Source: Hahella sp. (GTDB lineage: Bacteria; Pseudomonadota; Gammaproteobacteria; Pseudomonadales; Oleiphilaceae). Taken from it: 64,000 bases of DNA. Both the position numbers and the translations under genes were made by a program. Below are positions 17,958 through 24,659 of this stretch, in pieces. The notes under the pieces were generated by a model that made no database searches, was not told the DNA's origin, and saw only the letters and a list, made by a program, of their open reading frames with translations. Location of the stretch: assembly GCA_028280065.1 (NCBI GenBank), contig JANQMN010000066.1, positions 1 through 64,000 on the forward strand. Reading direction: 5' to 3'. How positions within the stretch are numbered: the stretch's first letter is position 1; every line of letters starts with the position of its first letter.

Positions 17958-18134
17958 ATGTATATCTACCGTCTGGTATTTTTGCTGATTTTAGGCGTTT
18001 ATATTTTTTCACCGGTGATTATGGACTGGTGGATCGCACCGGGTAGCGCCTGGTACCGGCCCTACATCATTTGGGCGCTGATCATTGCACTGGCGTACTG
18101 GTTGGAGCAGAAAAGGGGACCGCATGAATTTTAG
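17958..18134 (+). CDS. cbrX: Small membrane protein CbrX, overlapping cbrA
   Basis: A 58-residue hydrophobic protein with two predicted transmembrane helices (about residues 5–22 and 36–49) joined by a Trp/Pro/Gly-rich turn (DWWIAPGSAWYRP). Its stop codon lies 11 bp inside cbrA, so the two genes overlap and are likely translationally coupled. A small ORF named cbrX in exactly this place, coupled to cbrA, is known in Pseudomonas. It is too short for default gene callers and is hidden by a longer upstream extension of the cbrA frame. Role: probably controlling synthesis or membrane assembly of CbrA. Confidence 0.85.
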   Translation: MYIYRLVFLLILGVYIFSPVIMDWWIAPGSAWYRPYIIWALIIALAYWLEQKRGPHEF

Positions 18135-21084
18135 TGCCTGGCAACTTCTGCTCATCGGCGCCAGCTATCTCTTCGTAATTTTTGCACTGGCCTATTCCAG
18201 CGAGCGCGGTTGGTTTCCTCTCCGGCTGGTCCGACATCCCATGGTCTACGTGCTCAGCCTCGGTGTCTATGCCAGCGCTTGGGCCTACTATGGAGCCGTT
18301 CATCTGGCGTACCACTACGGTTATGGCTATCTGGCCTTTTATCTCGGTGTCTGTGGCGCATTTTTGCTGGCGCCAGTGCTATTGCTGCCTATATTGCGGG
18401 TCACCAAATCCCACCAATTATCGACCATCGCCGACCTTTTCGCTTTTCGCTACCGTAGCCAAACGGCGGGGTCCATCAGCACCCTGATCATCGGCGTGGC
18501 GACGCTGGTTCTGCTGGCGCTGCAATTTCAGGCGGTATTGGATTCGATTGGTACCATCGCCGGACAACGCAGTGCCTGGGCAGGCGCGGCATTTTGCCTG
18601 CTAATAATTATGTGCACCATTTTCTTTGGTGCGAGGGGGCAGGCCCGGATAGAGCGAAACCCAAGCTTGATGCTCTGCATCGCCTTGGAGGGATTGCTCA
18701 AACTGGTTATTTTTGCCGCCTTGGCGGTAGTCGTATTCAACCAGATATTCGGCGGCTTTTCCGAGATGCATCAATGGCTCAATACCAGTCAACCGGCGCT
18801 TCAGACCTTCCAGCAATCGTTCGATGACGGCGCCTGGCGCGCTTTATTGCTGATTTTCTTTGCCGCGGCCGTGGTCATGCCCCATATGTTTCACATGACC
18901 TTTACCGAAAACCTGAACCCTCAGGCCTTATTCAAGGCCAGTTGGGGTTTACCGCTATATCTGTTAATCATCAGCCTGCCTGTACCGCTTTTTCTATGGG
19001 CCGGTATCAAGTTACAACTTTCCGGCGAACCCAGCTATTTCATCCTCGGCATCGGCCAGGCCCTTGACATGCCGATTTTTACCCTGATCGCCTTCCTTGG
19101 CGGCCTGACTGCAGCCAGCGGCCTGTTAATCGTCAGTTGCCTGGCGCTGGCCTCCATGGCGCTCAATCACTTACTGCTGCCGGTTTATCAGCCGCTGGCC
19201 AGGGATGATATCTATCACTGGCTGACCTGGAGCCGGCGCATTCTTATCGCTGTCATTCTGGGAGCGGGCTATCTTCTGGCATTGCTCTTGGATTCCCGGT
19301 TATCGTTATCTGAGCTTGGCATACTGGCATTTTCGGCCGGGCTGCAACTATTTCCCGGCGTACTGGCGGTCATCTATTGGCCGGTGGGCAACCGCTATGG
19401 ATTTATCGCGGGTCTGGTCACCGGCACGCTGACCTGGCTGATCATGCTGGCGATTCCCTTGCTTATGCTGCACGAACCGGCGGATCAAAGCCTATTCAGT
19501 TGGATCCCTTTCAACTATGACCACTGGCACTACTACGTGATGGTTTCGCTATCCTTGAACGTGGTGGTATTTGTGGTTGTCTCGCTCTTTACCGAGGCCT
19601 CGCCGGAAGAATTACGCTCGGCCCAGGCCTGCTCCGTAGACAACCTGATGCGACCGTCCCGCCGGGAGTTGCAGGCATCAAGTTCAGAAGAGTTTAAACA
19701 CTTACTGGCAGAATCACTTGGCCGCAAAGCAGCGGAGAGAGAGGTTAACCATGCGATTGCCCAGCTAAATCTCAATGAACTGGAGTACCGCCCATACGCG
19801 TTGAGACGTTTGCGCGATCAGATTGAAATCAATCTTTCGGGGCTGCTTGGCCCCGCGATTGCCGGAGATATCGTACGCAGGCATTTACAGTTCAAGCCAT
19901 CTTCCGCAACCACACCGGCCCAGGATATTCATTTTGTCGAATCGAGCCTGGAGAGCTACCAACACCGTCTCAGCGGTCTAGCCGGAGAACTGGATACGCT
20001 CCGCCGTTACCACCGGCAAACCCTGCAAAACCTGCCTATTGCAGCTTGCTCCCTGGGAGCAGATCTGGAAGTGTTGATGTGGAATCAGGCAATGGAAACC
20101 CTGACTGATGTCGATGCCGACACGGTCATCGGCTCCCATGTCAGCTCCATCCCTGCCCCTTGGGGCAAATTGCTGTTCGATTTTGCGATCTATGAGCAAA
20201 ACCACCTGGCGAAGAAACGCATCGAGTGGCAAGGCAAACCCCATTGGCTAAATCTCAACAAAGCTTCCGTGGTGGAAGAGTCTGCTCACCAGATTCTTAT
20301 GGTTGAAGACTATACCGAAACCCAAACGCTGGAAGACGAGTTAGTGCATAGTGAACGTCTGGCATCCGTTGGCCGCCTTGCCGCGGGGGTCGCCCATGAA
20401 ATCGGCAATCCGGTGACCGGAATCGCCTGTTTGGCGCAAAATCTGAAATTGTTTACCGACGATAAAGACGTCCTGGAAACCGCGGATCAAATCATCACCC
20501 AAACCCAGCGCATCTCGAAAATACTGCAAACCCTAATGAATTTTTCCCGTAGCGGAAACTTCAGCCAATCCACCAAACATGAAGCCGTTAACCTGCATGG
20601 CTGTGTGGACGAGGCGATTCACCTGCTGTCGTTGTCGACGGCCGAAACCCAGGTGAGGTTTCACAACCAGGTCACCGACGACATTCAGGTTATGGGGGAT
20701 GCGCAACGCCTGGTACAGGTGTTCGTTAACCTGTTGAGTAATGCCCAAGATGCCTCGCCCCACCTCGGCAATATCTGGATAAATGCCGAACGCAAGGACT
20801 ACACCACCAGCATTCAGATCACTGATCAGGGTTCAGGCATTGAACCTGACCAACTGGACCAACTATTCGAACCATTTTTCACCACGAAAGGTCCGGACAA
20901 AGGTACCGGTCTCGGCCTGGCACTCGTCTACGGCATTATTGAGGAGCATTACGGTCACATTAAAATTGAAAGCCCTATAGACAACGAAACCCGCACAGGT
21001 ACACGAGTTGTGATAATATTGCCGGTCGCTGGGGAAAATAGTGCGGCGCCAAAATCTCTGGAGTCAAACAGCCAAGTAACCTGA
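18124..21084 (+). CDS. cbrA: Sensor histidine kinase CbrA (SLC5-transporter fusion)
   Basis: A 986-residue sensor kinase that controls the carbon/nitrogen balance with CbrB. The first ~480 residues form a multi-helix transporter module of the sodium:solute symporter (SLC5) type, then come the linker (STAC-like) region, a PAS domain, and HisKA with the phospho-acceptor in GVAHEIGNP (His758 from this start). The HATPase_c domain follows with its N box (NLLSNAQDA) and G boxes (DQGSG, GTGLGLAL). The transporter–PAS–kinase order is diagnostic of CbrA. ATG 18124 gives the overlap with cbrX and is preferred to the upstream ATG at 18085, which would extend into the cbrX frame. cbrB follows after 86 bp. 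Confidence 0.96.
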   Translation: MNFSAWQLLLIGASYLFVIFALAYSSERGWFPLRLVRHPMVYVLSLGVYASAWAYYGAVHLAYHYGYGYLAFYLGVCGAFLLAPVLLLPILRVTKSHQLSTIADLFAFRYRSQTAGSISTLIIGVATLVLLALQFQAVLDSIGTIAGQRSAWAGAAFCLLIIMCTIFFGARGQARIERNPSLMLCIALEGLLKLVIFAALAVVVFNQIFGGFSEMHQWLNTSQPALQTFQQSFDDGAWRALLLIFFAAAVVMPHMFHMTFTENLNPQALFKASWGLPLYLLIISLPVPLFLWAGIKLQLSGEPSYFILGIGQALDMPIFTLIAFLGGLTAASGLLIVSCLALASMALNHLLLPVYQPLARDDIYHWLTWSRRILIAVILGAGYLLALLLDSRLSLSELGILAFSAGLQLFPGVLAVIYWPVGNRYGFIAGLVTGTLTWLIMLAIPLLMLHEPADQSLFSWIPFNYDHWHYYVMVSLSLNVVVFVVVSLFTEASPEELRSAQACSVDNLMRPSRRELQASSSEEFKHLLAESLGRKAAEREVNHAIAQLNLNELEYRPYALRRLRDQIEINLSGLLGPAIAGDIVRRHLQFKPSSATTPAQDIHFVESSLESYQHRLSGLAGELDTLRRYHRQTLQNLPIAACSLGADLEVLMWNQAMETLTDVDADTVIGSHVSSIPAPWGKLLFDFAIYEQNHLAKKRIEWQGKPHWLNLNKASVVEESAHQILMVEDYTETQTLEDELVHSERLASVGRLAAGVAHEIGNPVTGIACLAQNLKLFTDDKDVLETADQIITQTQRISKILQTLMNFSRSGNFSQSTKHEAVNLHGCVDEAIHLLSLSTAETQVRFHNQVTDDIQVMGDAQRLVQVFVNLLSNAQDASPHLGNIWINAERKDYTTSIQITDQGSGIEPDQLDQLFEPFFTTKGPDKGTGLGLALVYGIIEEHYGHIKIESPIDNETRTGTRVVIILPVAGENSAAPKSLESNSQVT

Positions 21085-21170: not shown

Positions 21171-22547
21171 ATGGCTGTCATTTTAGTTGTTGAAGATGAA
21201 AAAATTATACGCCAGGCATTAAAGCGGCTCCTGGAACACAATGGCTACGAAGTGGACGAAGCCGAAAGCGTCGAACAAGCCCTGGAATGCCTCAGTAGAA
21301 GGCGACCGGATTTAATCATCAGCGACTTGCGTTTGCCGGAACGGCCGGGAACTGACCTGCTGGATCAGAAGTCCATTCCGGTTTTGATCATGACAAGTTA
21401 TGCCAGCCTCCGCTCCGCTGTGGATTCGATGAAGCAGGGCGCGGTGGATTACATCGCCAAACCATTCGATCACGACGAAATGCTGGAGTCCGTCAGCACT
21501 ATTCTTAAACAGCGCTCCACCGATGTTCAGCCGGAATCGAGTGTCTCCACGGCGGCTGGTAGCGAAGAACAGCACCCTGACATCAGCCGTCTTATGTACG
21601 GCAAATGTACCGAGATGCGCAAGCTTTTCGATTTGATTAAAAAGGTGTCGCCGACCGACACCACGGTGCTTATTCAGGGTGAATCCGGCACCGGTAAGGA
21701 ATTGGCTGCCCGAGCGCTGCATACCCTGAGCCGGCGGCAAGCCGCCCCGATCATCTGTGTCAACTGTGCAGCTATTCCGGAGACCTTGATCGAGTCGGAA
21801 CTTTTCGGCCACGAGAAAGGCGCGTTCACCGGCGCGGTCGGGGCACGAAACGGCCTGATCGAAGCGGCGGATTCCGGCACCCTTTTTCTGGATGAAATCG
21901 GCGAACTGCCCATGGAGGCCCAAGCCCGTCTGCTCCGCGTACTGCAGGAAGGAGAAATTCGCCGGGTCGGGTCTACCCAGTCAAAACAGGTCAACGTCAG
22001 ACTGATTGCCGCGACCCATCGTAACTTGAAGGCCATGACCCAGACGGGACAGTTCCGGGAAGATCTGTTCTACCGACTGAATGTCATGCAACTGGTGATC
22101 CCACCATTACGTGACCGAAAAGAAGACGTGGTCGGCCTGGCTCAACTGCTACTGGACAAACTCAGCAAAAAGATGGGCAAACAAGATCTGCAATTTAGCG
22201 AGAATGCCCTGTTTGCGATTCGCCAATACCAATGGCCAGGCAATGTCCGGGAACTTGAGAATGCCGTTGAACGTGCTGTAATACTTGTCGACGGTCACAG
22301 CATCTCAGCCGAACTCCTGTCTATCGATACCGACAACCAGTTCAGCAGCATTCCTGACGCTACCGACAAAGAATTCGCAGACAACAAACCTGCGGAGCTG
22401 TCGTTGGAAGACTATTTTCAACACTTTGTGCTGGAAAACCAGGACACCATGAGCGAAACCGAACTGGCCAAGAAACTCGGCATCAGCCGCAAGAGCCTTT
22501 GGGAGCGCCGTCAGCGCCTGGGAATCCCCCGATCCAAAAAACGCTGA
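21171..22547 (+). CDS. cbrB: Sigma-54-dependent response regulator CbrB
   Basis: An NtrC-family activator of 458 residues. The receiver domain has the acidic pair VEDE and phospho-acceptor Asp52 in SDLRLP. The AAA+ domain has Walker A GESGTGKE, the sigma-54 contact loop GAFTGA and Walker B FLDEIGE, plus a C-terminal Fis-type helix-turn-helix (ETELAKKLGISRKSLWERRQ). All elements for sigma-54 activation are intact. In Pseudomonas its main target is the sRNA gene crcZ, located directly downstream between cbrB and pcnB. Here the same interval contains a GG-N10-GC sigma-54 promoter, GTAAC-type sites and an A-motif-rich transcript, which strengthens the identification. Confidence 0.96.
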   Translation: MAVILVVEDEKIIRQALKRLLEHNGYEVDEAESVEQALECLSRRRPDLIISDLRLPERPGTDLLDQKSIPVLIMTSYASLRSAVDSMKQGAVDYIAKPFDHDEMLESVSTILKQRSTDVQPESSVSTAAGSEEQHPDISRLMYGKCTEMRKLFDLIKKVSPTDTTVLIQGESGTGKELAARALHTLSRRQAAPIICVNCAAIPETLIESELFGHEKGAFTGAVGARNGLIEAADSGTLFLDEIGELPMEAQARLLRVLQEGEIRRVGSTQSKQVNVRLIAATHRNLKAMTQTGQFREDLFYRLNVMQLVIPPLRDRKEDVVGLAQLLLDKLSKKMGKQDLQFSENALFAIRQYQWPGNVRELENAVERAVILVDGHSISAELLSIDTDNQFSSIPDATDKEFADNKPAELSLEDYFQHFVLENQDTMSETELAKKLGISRKSLWERRQRLGIPRSKKR

Positions 22548-22668
22548 TTCGTTTACCCGCGTCACCCCCACCCAGCAAATGACTAATTTTTCATCAATCT
22601 TCACTTGCGCATATTGATTATTGTGTAATATTTACCCTATACGTGTATCTTTCAGCCAAAACAGCGCC

Positions 22669-22737
22669 TGGTAACAATGTTACCAAGCGTTACCTCAGGA
22701 AACAGCTCTCCTGCTATAAGGGGAGCATAGGTAACAC
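22669..22737 (+). promoter_or_regulatory. Candidate CbrB binding sites (GTAACA/TGTTAC elements)
   Basis: A perfect 17-nt palindrome TGGTAACAATGTTACCA (22669–22685), then GTTACC (22689–22694) and GGTAACAC (22730–22737). CbrB sites in Pseudomonas are built from TGTTAC and GTAACA half-sites. These lie about 75–140 bp upstream of the sigma-54 promoter, a typical enhancer distance. The half-site spacing is not the canonical one, so the exact binding mode is inference. Confidence 0.7.
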
Positions 22738-22810
22738 TTTTGTACGCGTTTTCACTTACAACTTTCGGGTAAATTCTCCAATCTACTGTTTAATAAAGTT
22801 TTTTTATAGA

Positions 22811-22826
22811 TGGCATAAGTTATGCC
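22811..22826 (+). promoter_or_regulatory. Sigma-54 promoter of the crcZ-like sRNA
   Basis: TGGCATAAGTTATGCC has GG (22812–22813) and GC (22824–22825) separated by exactly 10 bp, and fits the consensus TGGCA-N6-TGC well. Transcription would start near 22837. Confidence 0.8.
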
Positions 22827-22836
22827 TTATTAGGGA

Positions 22837-23192
22837 CCAAAATAAAAACAAAAACCCTTAAGTCGCATAAACAAAAATAAAAAAGCGGATAAAACAAACC
22901 CTGAACAAAAATAAAAATAGGGTGGCGAACTGATTGTTTTGAGTGACAGGCTTTTTAGTGGTAGCCAGTCTTCAAGAGGCTGAACAGATAGCAAAAATAG
23001 CAAAAGCAAAATTATCTGTTCGAAAAGGTGTCTTGTGAGAATTACCACTCAATGTATTCAAAGCGTTCCGTTTGCGCTTTCTACTCTTATACGCTCTAAA
23101 TGTGGAGCAGTCATTTGGGACTGTGACGAAACAAAAACAAAAATCGTCTAACCTTCTTCTTGGTGGGGAAGCATCAGCCTTCCCCTTAGTTT
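22837..23192 (+). ncRNA. crcZ: CrcZ-like Hfq/Crc-titrating small RNA
   Basis: Predicted sRNA of about 356 nt between cbrB and pcnB, the crcZ position in Pseudomonas. It has no coding potential worth noting. Six A-rich AANAANAA-type motifs of the kind bound by Hfq with Crc lie at 22839–22854, 22869–22884, 22891–22898, 22904–22919, 22992–23011 and 23129–23143. One is presented in the loop of a 9-bp stem, GAACAGATA (22982–22990) with TATCTGTTC (23013–23021). The 5' end is set by the sigma-54 promoter and the 3' end by the hairpin at 23165–23185. CrcZ-type RNAs sequester Hfq/Crc and so relieve catabolite repression when CbrAB is active. Sequence identity to known CrcZ was not tested; the call rests on synteny, promoter and motif density. 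Confidence 0.82.
23165..23192 (+). terminator. Terminator of the crcZ-like sRNA
   Basis: GGGGAAG (23165–23171) pairs with CTTCCCC (23179–23185), followed by TTAGTTT. The stem is only 7 bp but GC-rich, and it closes the A-motif-rich segment. Confidence 0.65.
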
Positions 23193-23306
23193 CCCCGAAA
23201 CAAGCTTATAACTACCCTGCAAAATTGCGTCTTTTCGCTAATTCGCCAAAACTGTATTAAAGGAGTAAACTCCGCTCCTTAATAATAACCAACCATTCCA
23301 CTTTAA

Positions 23307-24659
23307 ATGCTTAATAAGATTTTCAATTTTATTCGACCTGGTTCCAAGCCATCGAGGCCGGCAAAATTGAATATAATTCCTCGCGACCATCACCCTGTCT
23401 CACGCAAGAAAATCAGTCCGAACGCCGTCAAGGTGCTTTACCGGCTAAACAATGCAGGTTTCGATGCGTTTCTTGTCGGCGGCGGCGTCAGGGATATTTA
23501 TCTAAACGACACGCCGAAAGATTTTGACATTGCCACCAATGCCACTCCGGAAGAAGTGCGTAGTCTGTTCGGAAACTGCCGGCTGATAGGTAGACGGTTT
23601 CGTCTGGCCCATGTGCGTTTCGGCAGGGAAATCATCGAAGTGGCGACCTTCCGCGCCGGGCACGACAAGGTCGAGGAAAGCAGTGTCCAGGCGGCAACCA
23701 ATCAAGAAGGACAGATTCTTCGCGACAATGTTTACGGCAACCAGCAAGAAGATGCCCTGCGCCGGGATTTTACCGTCAATGCGCTGTATTACAGTGTCGC
23801 CGATTTTAGTGTTTACGACTATGTGGGCGGGGTGCAGGATCTAGAGGACCGGCTGTTACGCCTGATTGGCGATCCGGCGACACGTTATCGGGAAGATCCG
23901 GTTCGGATGCTGCGGGCTGCTCGATTCTCCGCCAAACTGGATTTTGCCATCGAATCCGCCACTGCCGCCCCGATCGAAGAACTGGCCCCTCTGTTGCTGA
24001 ACATTCCGTCCGCGCGCCTGTTTGAGGAAGTCCTGAAACTGTTCTTATCCGGTCAGGGATTTCGCACTTTTAGTATTTTACGCGAACTGGGCTTATTCAA
24101 GTTTTTGTTTCCCGGTGCCGACGACCTGCTGGAAGCCGGTGCGCCCTATGCCGAAAAACTGCTGACAGCCGCGCTGAAGAACACAGACAGCCGGATCAAC
24201 GCCAACAAACCGGTCACTCCGGCTTTCCTGTACGCTACCATGCTGTGGCCGGAGGTGTTGCAAAACAAAACGGTTTATACCGAGCAAGGCCTTCCGCCGC
24301 TGCCGGCAACGCATAAGGCGGCACAAATCGTCATCGAACAGCAGATTAAACATACCGCGCTGCCCCGCCGTTTCAGCCAACCAATGAAGGAAATCTGGGA
24401 ACTCCAGGAGCGATTGGTTAAGCGCCAAGGGCGCCGGGCCGAAGCATTACTCGAACATCCTAGGTTTCGTGCCGCCTATGATTTTCTTTTGCTCCGGGAA
24501 CAAAGCGGGGAGCAGCTTGAAGGACTGGGCGACTGGTGGACCGAATTTCAACAAAGCGACCCGAATCACCGCCTGAAGCTCCAGGAAAAAACCAGCGGTA
24601 AATCCGGCAAACCGCGACGTCCCCGCCGTCCCAGACACAGACCCCGAAAACGTGATTAA
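23307..24659 (+). CDS. pcnB: Poly(A) polymerase I
   Basis: Class II nucleotidyltransferase that adds 3' A tails to RNAs and marks them for decay. The 450 residues have the signature LVGGGVRDIYLNDTPKDFDI around residues 56–75, containing the GG motif and catalytic DxD (DFD). The RNA-binding neck follows, then the PcnB-specific C-terminal region and a strongly basic Arg/Pro/Lys tail (residues about 430–450). Length and tail distinguish it from the shorter CCA-adding enzyme. It lies downstream of the crcZ-like locus and overlaps folK by 8 bp, so pcnB and folK form one transcript, as in E. coli and Pseudomonas. Confidence 0.96.
   Translation: MLNKIFNFIRPGSKPSRPAKLNIIPRDHHPVSRKKISPNAVKVLYRLNNAGFDAFLVGGGVRDIYLNDTPKDFDIATNATPEEVRSLFGNCRLIGRRFRLAHVRFGREIIEVATFRAGHDKVEESSVQAATNQEGQILRDNVYGNQQEDALRRDFTVNALYYSVADFSVYDYVGGVQDLEDRLLRLIGDPATRYREDPVRMLRAARFSAKLDFAIESATAAPIEELAPLLLNIPSARLFEEVLKLFLSGQGFRTFSILRELGLFKFLFPGADDLLEAGAPYAEKLLTAALKNTDSRINANKPVTPAFLYATMLWPEVLQNKTVYTEQGLPPLPATHKAAQIVIEQQIKHTALPRRFSQPMKEIWELQERLVKRQGRRAEALLEHPRFRAAYDFLLLREQSGEQLEGLGDWWTEFQQSDPNHRLKLQEKTSGKSGKPRRPRRPRHRPRKRD

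Follow-up and report, generated by a model that had tools for sequence, protein, structure and literature searches.

A predicted CrcZ-type regulatory RNA between cbrB and pcnB in Hahella and its range across the order Pseudomonadales

The gap between cbrB and pcnB in a Hahella sp. genome raises the question of whether a regulatory RNA of the CrcZ type is encoded there, and of how far such a locus extends beyond the bacteria in which it is known. The Cbr system is called unique to Pseudomonadaceae, and is said to be described only in Pseudomonas and Azotobacter, in a passage of a 2022 review (PMC8871633). The window analysed here is the whole stretch of 64,000 nucleotides from contig JANQMN010000066.1, and a sequence-only reading of it had placed in the gap an unannotated RNA of this type. 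We describe the DNA elements of the locus with their conserved spacing and relate the region to its homologue, Pseudomonas CrcZ; CbrA, CbrB, Crc and Hfq are all encoded in the genome. We consider it very probable that the gap encodes a CrcZ-type decoy RNA which would be activated by CbrB and sigma-54 and would titrate Hfq/Crc.

Layout of the cbrB–pcnB gap

By the ORF coordinates in the window, the gap between cbrB and pcnB extends over 759 bp from 22548 to 23306, the size given by the sequence-only reading, and the order cbrX–cbrA–cbrB that it had described 5' of the gap also held, with all three genes and pcnB identified as follows.

17958..18134, + strand: cbrX, a 58-aa ORF with an 11-nt overlap with the inferred cbrA start
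18124..21084, + strand: cbrA, membrane histidine kinase with HisKA and HATPase domains
21171..22547, + strand: cbrB, sigma-54-dependent response regulator, from its Pfam domains and a conserved C-terminal signature
23307..24659, + strand: pcnB, polynucleotide adenylyltransferase, TIGR01942 above cut-off

The start of cbrA at 18124 is our choice, the ORF list beginning at a TTG at 18085. CbrA is 52.6-53.6% identical to the CbrA of three Pseudomonas loci, and its residues 1-592 are covered by PDB entry 10ed_A (E 2.6e-194), which is titled only 'histidine kinase'. From knowledge of the family we take the N-terminal half of CbrA to be transporter-like; the Pfam domain search matched no transporter family in the protein. 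In P. putida, cbrX likewise has 58 amino acids and overlaps cbrA, according to a passage of the same review (PMC8871633). The predicted RNA is encoded between cbrB and pcnB, 3' of cbrX-cbrA, and is preceded by these elements.

22671..22704, + strand: predicted CbrB-type sites, with GTAACA at 22671, TGTTAC (F1) at 22678, GTTACC at 22689 and GAAACA (R1, one mismatch) at 22699
22731..22736, + strand: predicted CbrB-type R2 site GTAACA, 80 bp 5' of the -24 element
22780..22792, + strand: candidate IHF site with one mismatch to WATCAANNNNTTR, between operator and promoter, weak when taken alone
22811..22825, + strand: predicted sigma-54 promoter TGGCATAAGTTATGC, of the GG-N10-GC form

Both the GTAACA/TGTTAC sites (GTAACA at 22671 and 22731, TGTTAC at 22678) and the GG-N10-GC promoter at 22811-22825 agree with what the sequence-only reading had proposed. 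The F1, R1 and R2 subsites, R1 with its one mismatch, stand 5' of this promoter with start spacings of 21 and 32 bp, which are identical in the Marinobacter locus L119. The consensus of IHF is WATCAANNNNTTR, and the usual -12 element of sigma-54 promoters is TTGC, from which the TATGC of the window's promoter departs. In P. putida, CbrB binds TGTTAC/GTAACA-type subsites 5' of a sigma-54 promoter with the assistance of IHF, as stated in a part of PMC6296734.

When the pattern GTAACA-N70-82-TGGC-N8-TGC was searched in seven genomes of the same genus, 14 matches were obtained, and the crcZ site was the only one present in all seven; one other match was common to two genomes, G004 and G005. The matches numbered 1-3 per genome in comparison to 0-5 for the reversed control pattern, so that there is no excess, and the matches away from crcZ may be due to chance because the control gives similar numbers per genome.

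Predicted RNA and its homology to Pseudomonas CrcZ

The RNA predicted from this promoter contains five A-rich tracts of at least four ARN repeats and is closed by a hairpin.

22837..23193, + strand: predicted crcZ-type RNA of about 357 nt, its start taken from promoter spacing and its end from the hairpin, with a Rfam RF01675 match, alignment A2 and the fold as evidence
22841..22855, + strand: A-rich tract 1 (ARN x5), at the RNA 5' end
22870..22884, + strand: A-rich tract 2 (ARN x5), hairpin loop
22904..22921, + strand: A-rich tract 3 (ARN x6), hairpin loop
22990..23010, + strand: A-rich tract 4 (ARN x7, not strict AANAANAA), hairpin loop
23130..23144, + strand: A-rich tract 5 (ARN x5), hairpin loop
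23165..23193, + strand: terminator-like hairpin (23165-23185, G+C-rich) with a weak T-run, tail TTAGTTTCCC

Here the sequence-only reading needed some adjustment. It had counted six A-rich motifs with one of them in a hairpin loop; several tracts are indeed present, and its count was off by one, since five lie inside the RNA, four of which are strict AANAANAA clusters (at 22841, 22870, 22904 and 23130), a further strict match at about 23281 lying outside the predicted RNA. Display in loops was also found, for four of the five tracts in the fold instead of one. The terminator that it had named is present as a hairpin, followed by only a weak T tail.

The tracts cover 56 nt in comparison to a mean of 17.6 nt in shuffled sequences, a coverage reached by none of 2000 shuffles, and the number of strict clusters taken alone was not significant (4 versus 2.0 in shuffles, p 0.086). 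The fold of 22837-23197 had a z value of -4.33, and none of 100 shuffles was equally stable. We also compared the fit of the stems around each tract when both arms came from the same locus and when arms were mixed across loci, using only dereplicated gaps with a TGGCA-type promoter, 17 to 94 per tract. The native stems scored higher for tract 2 (11.7 in comparison to 9.4, n=94), tract 3 (14.3 in comparison to 9.8, n=90) and tract 5 (12.0 in comparison to 9.4, n=75), and barely exceeded the cross-species control for tract 1 (7.5 in comparison to 6.6, n=17) and tract 4 (10.4 in comparison to 9.4, n=58). RNAs with 6-8 A-tracts were seen in L133 and L147 (Halomonas group), L155 (Oceanospirillum) and L167 (Cobetia), and several of these tracts sit on hairpins whose stem sequences are unrelated.

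A small protein was considered for the RNA region, which is overlapped on the sense strand by five ORFs when 20 aa is taken as the minimum length (23-72 aa, with GTG/TTG starts), and was rejected; the differing lengths between tracts in alignment A2, described below, argue against a conserved small-protein frame.

The covariance-model comparison with the CrcZ family gave CrcZ as the best match, over the full model and below the gathering score. With relaxed thresholds, the best Rfam match in the gap was CrcZ (RF01675) at 22839-23219, with 39.1 bits and an E value of 9.4e-9, which spans model positions 1-398, and the next best Rfam match had an E value of 2.5. This was the only RF01675 match at E <= 0.001 in the 6.68-Mb genome. 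At gathering thresholds, Rfam found only a single tRNA in the whole window; standard pipelines would miss the RNA, because its 39.1 bits are less than the RF01675 gathering score of 95, and curated membership of the family is thus not reached. Judged by its homology, the predicted RNA is a CrcZ homologue, though it stands outside RF01675 as the curators set it.

To relate the RNA to Pseudomonas CrcZ, we used alignment A2, which contains 27 hand-picked sequences from Hahella, Marinobacter-family and Pseudomonas loci. The tracts are aligned in register with Pseudomonas, together with two blocks that are not A-rich (GCGAACTGATTGTTTTG and TATTCAAAGCGTTCCGTTTGC in Hahella), whose columns rank with the best conserved of A2 over the range from Hahella to Pseudomonas. 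RNAalifold pairs the two blocks with each other into a long-range helix.

22932..22943, + strand: 5' arm of the conserved long-range helix, A2 columns 129-140
23057..23068, + strand: 3' arm of the conserved long-range helix, A2 columns 273-284

The A2 consensus structure has 18 pairs in 4 helices, with 93.0% of cells paired in comparison to 36-53% when it was slid by 1-3 columns, and its long-range helix (10 pairs) has 96.3% paired and varies little, a single pair showing changes in both partners. In 500 shuffles of the 3' letters, the observed values for paired cells, for cells with both partners changed and for the covariation score were never reached, and the covariation was not extreme by the number of doubly changed pairs (28 of 500 shuffles) or by further pair types (74 of 500); all these statistics are favoured because A2 itself was the source of the structure. 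Taken together, the RNA has both sequence and structure homology to Pseudomonas CrcZ.

The high conservation of the two blocks, together with the report in a passage of a review that RsmA and RsmN bind CrcZ at distinct motifs (PMC8871633), could also indicate that the non-A core (about 22922-22943 and 23050-23075) forms a functional module of its own, acting by base pairing or on another protein such as an RsmA/CsrA homologue. We regard this as unlikely though worth keeping in mind, as the blocks pair with each other and a purely structural role is thus sufficient to account for their conservation.

Another reading of the region is that it forms a long 5' leader of pcnB, transcribed from the CbrB-controlled sigma-54 promoter with no separate RNA. 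It draws on the position of pcnB, which lies 3' on the same strand in most loci, on the weakness of the T-run after the hairpin, and on RNAalifold leaving the terminator region of A2 unpaired, where many rows are cut. Against it, a G+C-rich hairpin closes the predicted RNA in the window, the crcZ module of Tamilnaduibacter L126 is intact with pcnB 4.5 kb distant, Pseudomonas CrcZ has the same conserved tracts and helix, and CrcZ is a separate transcriptional unit in Pseudomonas as stated in a section of PMC8871633. We thus hold a leader to be very improbable and continue with a separate CrcZ-type RNA.

Distribution of the locus within and outside the order

Among 58 relatives searched, a CbrB match at E <= 1e-100 was found in 55, and was absent in G010, G022 and G054. 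The gaps that follow cbrB were analysed in two sets, 54 from relatives and 80 from named genomes, the latter being the best 80 loci by CbrB C-terminus similarity, for which reason this set leans to close relatives; it spans Marinobacter, Halomonas, Vreelandella, Oceanospirillum, a Saccharospirillum MAG, Dasania, a Perlucidibaca MAG, Cobetia and Pseudomonas. The gene pcnB lies 3' of cbrB in 48 of the 54 loci from relatives, and in the best 80 named loci cbrA lies 5' of cbrB in 79 (the exception is Cobetia L167) with a cbrX-like match 5' of cbrA in 76. Matches to CbrB on viral contigs (14, with 32-48% identity) were taken as other sigma-54 activators and set aside.

From the 134 gaps, one shorter than 150 bp was dropped and the remaining 133 were reduced to 118 by shared 12-mers. 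The results showed that TGGC-N8-TGC occurs in 106 of the 118 dereplicated gaps (shuffle mean 6.18), that 105 (0.44 in dinucleotide shuffles) have an A-tract no more than 60 nt from this promoter, and that 100 (0.025 in shuffles) have the full module, to which GTAACA with at most one mismatch belongs at 70-91 bp upstream, counts that are not independent events because the compared sequences are related. Before dereplication, the full module was present in 40 of the 54 gaps from relatives and in 75 of the best 80. Of 102 modules with R2, 62 have this site 80 bp from the promoter, the distance also seen in the window, and 98 have it at 79-83 bp. Records of Marinobacter, Halomonas, Oceanospirillum, Saccharospirillum and Dasania carry the full module, and Perlucidibaca L138 has promoter and A-tract with the upstream site absent.

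These counts bear on the reading that the A-rich tracts and promoter matches of this intergenic region are due only to chance, a reading to which the strict A-cluster count, not significant alone, and the Rfam score below the gathering cut-off would lend themselves. It is refuted by the dinucleotide shuffles over the 118 gaps, with 0.025 modules in comparison to the 100 found, and the Rfam E value and the z value of the fold speak against it as well; we give it practically no probability.

In a survey of 20 further families of the order, each represented by one genome, the promoter with A-tract was found in 14 and the full module in 11; the genome from a 21st family, G054, is without CbrB. One of the misses, L034, ends at a contig end, and its genome has an above-threshold RF01675 match on another contig. 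A variant promoter, TGGCACGATAGCCGC, with A-tract and GTAACA sites is present in L048, and no module was found in L032, L039, L051 and L052 even by a plain GG-N10-GC search, the genome of L039 (G043) having RF01675 matches elsewhere. Within the family of the window, an A-tract after a TGGT variant was seen in L035 and L036, and no module was found in L009 (contig end), L038 and L047. RF01675 itself was matched at E <= 0.01 in 61 of 244 genomes sampled from the order, a search whose filters lose weak matches, and above the gathering score in 11 of the 244, of which 8 belong to family f20, which we take to be Pseudomonadaceae, and 3 to f2. By these sequence comparisons, the locus occurs in many families of the order beyond Pseudomonadaceae, which corrects the range given in the review.

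Several gaps showed further arrangements. Two promoter-plus-tract modules per gap were seen in L045, L049 and Dasania L163, as would result from a local duplication of crcZ, and a second, weaker match in L029. A record labelled as a Pedobacter MAG (L176) carries cbrA, cbrB and a promoter-plus-tract module, and is perhaps a mislabelled or contaminated bin.

Outside the order, 274 genomes from the class were surveyed with a CbrB cut-off of E <= 1e-115, which was passed in 27, 24 of them outside the order; these 24 together with one further in-order genome (L230) gave 25 loci. In the fetched stretch of up to about 2 kb (less than 1 kb for L218), pcnB was found 3' of cbrB in none of the 25 loci, and the promoter with A-tract module was likewise found in none. 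CbrA was located 5' of cbrB in 22 of 23 outside-order loci examined, with a cbrX-like match in 18 of the 23. The genes 3' of cbrB include acetyl-CoA synthetase in L208, L211, L213, L216 and L228 by inspection (Pfam ACAS_N was found in both loci tested, L211 and L228), a solute symporter in L219 (Pfam SSF) and in L217 (by similarity), and AceK in L227 (Pfam); the N-termini of the downstream genes from L206 and L215 had no Pfam match.

In the first 200 nt after cbrB, at least two GTTAC/GTAAC sites were present in 7 of 24 loci (shuffle mean 0.94, maximum 5), L218 being left out for its broken reading frame and L230 included, and two of the seven, L217 and L219, come from the same family, so that these loci are not independent. 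In 10 loci there was one such 5-mer or more, in comparison to 6.1 expected, a weaker excess reached by 32 of 500 shuffles. The occurrence of these sites after cbrB in outside-order loci without the module points to an operator older than the RNA, and suggests that crcZ arose under a pre-existing CbrB operator, an order of events drawn from site distribution instead of a tree. As a tentative scheme, which we consider possible though somewhat short of probable, CbrAB-CrcZ would be ancestral to the order Pseudomonadales (GTDB), and an older CbrA-CbrB would have switched acetate-related genes such as acetyl-CoA synthetase and the solute symporter through TGTTAC/GTAACA sites just 3' of cbrB. An A-rich decoy RNA would then have taken over the operator in the ancestor of the order, so that a switch with local effect came to act globally via Hfq, and the RNA would evolve by gain and loss of hairpin-displayed A-tracts and by tandem duplication.

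Proposed mechanism and comparison with known systems

Both protein partners of CrcZ are encoded in the window's genome. The best PDB match of its Hfq is 1u1s (E 1.6e-38), which we take to be the P. aeruginosa Hfq, and that of its Crc homologue is 4jg3, 'Catabolite repression control protein' (E 9e-70), presumably the P. aeruginosa protein, ahead of exodeoxyribonuclease 2jc5 (E 4.9e-50). The exodeoxyribonuclease III model TIGR00633 (NCBIfam) also passes its cut-off on the Crc homologue, as is expected for the fold, and a separate ExoIII-like protein (L180), named by inspection, is present in the same genome. At position 25, on the distal face, this Hfq (L179) has Phe where 1u1s has Tyr, and aromatic stacking may persist.

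A Crc match at E <= 1e-20 was found in 55 of the 58 relatives searched, and was absent in G054, which has no CbrB, and in G022 and G038, both less than 76% complete; G010 has Crc and no CbrB match. The Crc matches of G052 and G053 are weak and exonuclease-like (28% and 26% identity), and G052 is a result against strict coupling, as its gap (L043) has promoter and tracts with no convincing Crc. Overall, the sequence-only reading of a CrcZ-type regulatory RNA is supported at its own level by the Rfam match, the spacing, the RNA homology and the presence of Crc and Hfq. It had not remarked that the locus lies outside the family to which the system is said to be confined.

The CrcZ of P. aeruginosa contains six tracts of ARN (n>=4), binds the distal face of Hfq and titrates Hfq away from A-rich ribosome-binding sites, as given in parts of PMC4063720. 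The same parts in the same order as in Pseudomonas make the same mechanism the best explanation for Hahella, in which transcription, dependence on CbrB and RpoN, Hfq binding and the physiological role would be as in Pseudomonas and Azotobacter. CbrB would bind the TGTTAC/GTAACA sites, and IHF would probably bend the DNA and so help CbrB to activate the sigma-54 promoter at 22811. An RNA of about 357 nt ending near 23193 would then be made, which would present five ARN tracts, most of them in small hairpin loops, around the conserved long-range helix. As each tract could be bound by an Hfq hexamer through its distal face, the RNA would titrate Hfq/Crc from A-rich sites at mRNA starts, so that catabolite repression would be relieved and the cell could switch its food source.

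An RNA of this kind is already known, and what is new is its phylogenetic range and its possible origin. In the open-access literature, as far as its accessible text goes, no description of CrcZ outside Pseudomonas/Azotobacter was found, and no paper was found with CrcZ and Marinobacter or with CrcZ, sRNA and Cellvibrio. For Halomonas and CrcZ, the accessible part of PMC9049629 treats P. putida only; CrcZ is named only in the introduction of PMC5955585 and only in a reference of PMC12510878, and the six terms on distribution sought in PMC13022988 are absent from it. Transcripts of CbrA-CbrB are reported from a mesopelagic community in a passage of PMC5073097. For Marinobacter and Halomonas, no paper describing the CrcZ layer of carbon control was found in the open-access literature. 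The distant homologues also reveal constraints on the system, namely promoter geometry, hairpin-displayed tracts and core helix, and the origin of a Hfq-sponge RNA becomes testable, because CbrAB occurs outside the order without the RNA and in some loci with operator sites.

In comparison to the CrcZ of Pseudomonas and Azotobacter (RF01675), the Hahella RNA shares the position between cbrB and pcnB, the CbrB subsites, the sigma-54 promoter, the A-tract at the 5' end, the similar placement of the other tracts, the long-range core helix and the 3' hairpin. It differs in that its Rfam score is far below the gathering score, in that its identity to Pseudomonas CrcZ is much lower outside tracts and core, and in its host, Hahella being a genus outside Pseudomonadaceae; it has five ARN tracts, in comparison to the six reported for P. 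aeruginosa CrcZ in PMC4063720. CrcY and CrcX are CbrB-activated paralogues of CrcZ in some Pseudomonas and Azotobacter, according to passages of PMC6296734 and PMC8871633. The Hahella RNA is of the same kind as these, with CbrB activation predicted here, and unlike it they are separate genes, of which the Hahella genome shows no sign in the form of a second RF01675 match at E <= 0.001. Decoy RNAs of RsmA/CsrA bind through GGA motifs. The sponge logic and the repeated protein-binding motifs are common to RsmY/RsmZ, CsrB and the Hahella RNA, a comparison made for CrcZ in a part of PMC4063720, whereas the predicted target of the Hahella RNA is Hfq/Crc through ARN tracts, in place of RsmA/CsrA.
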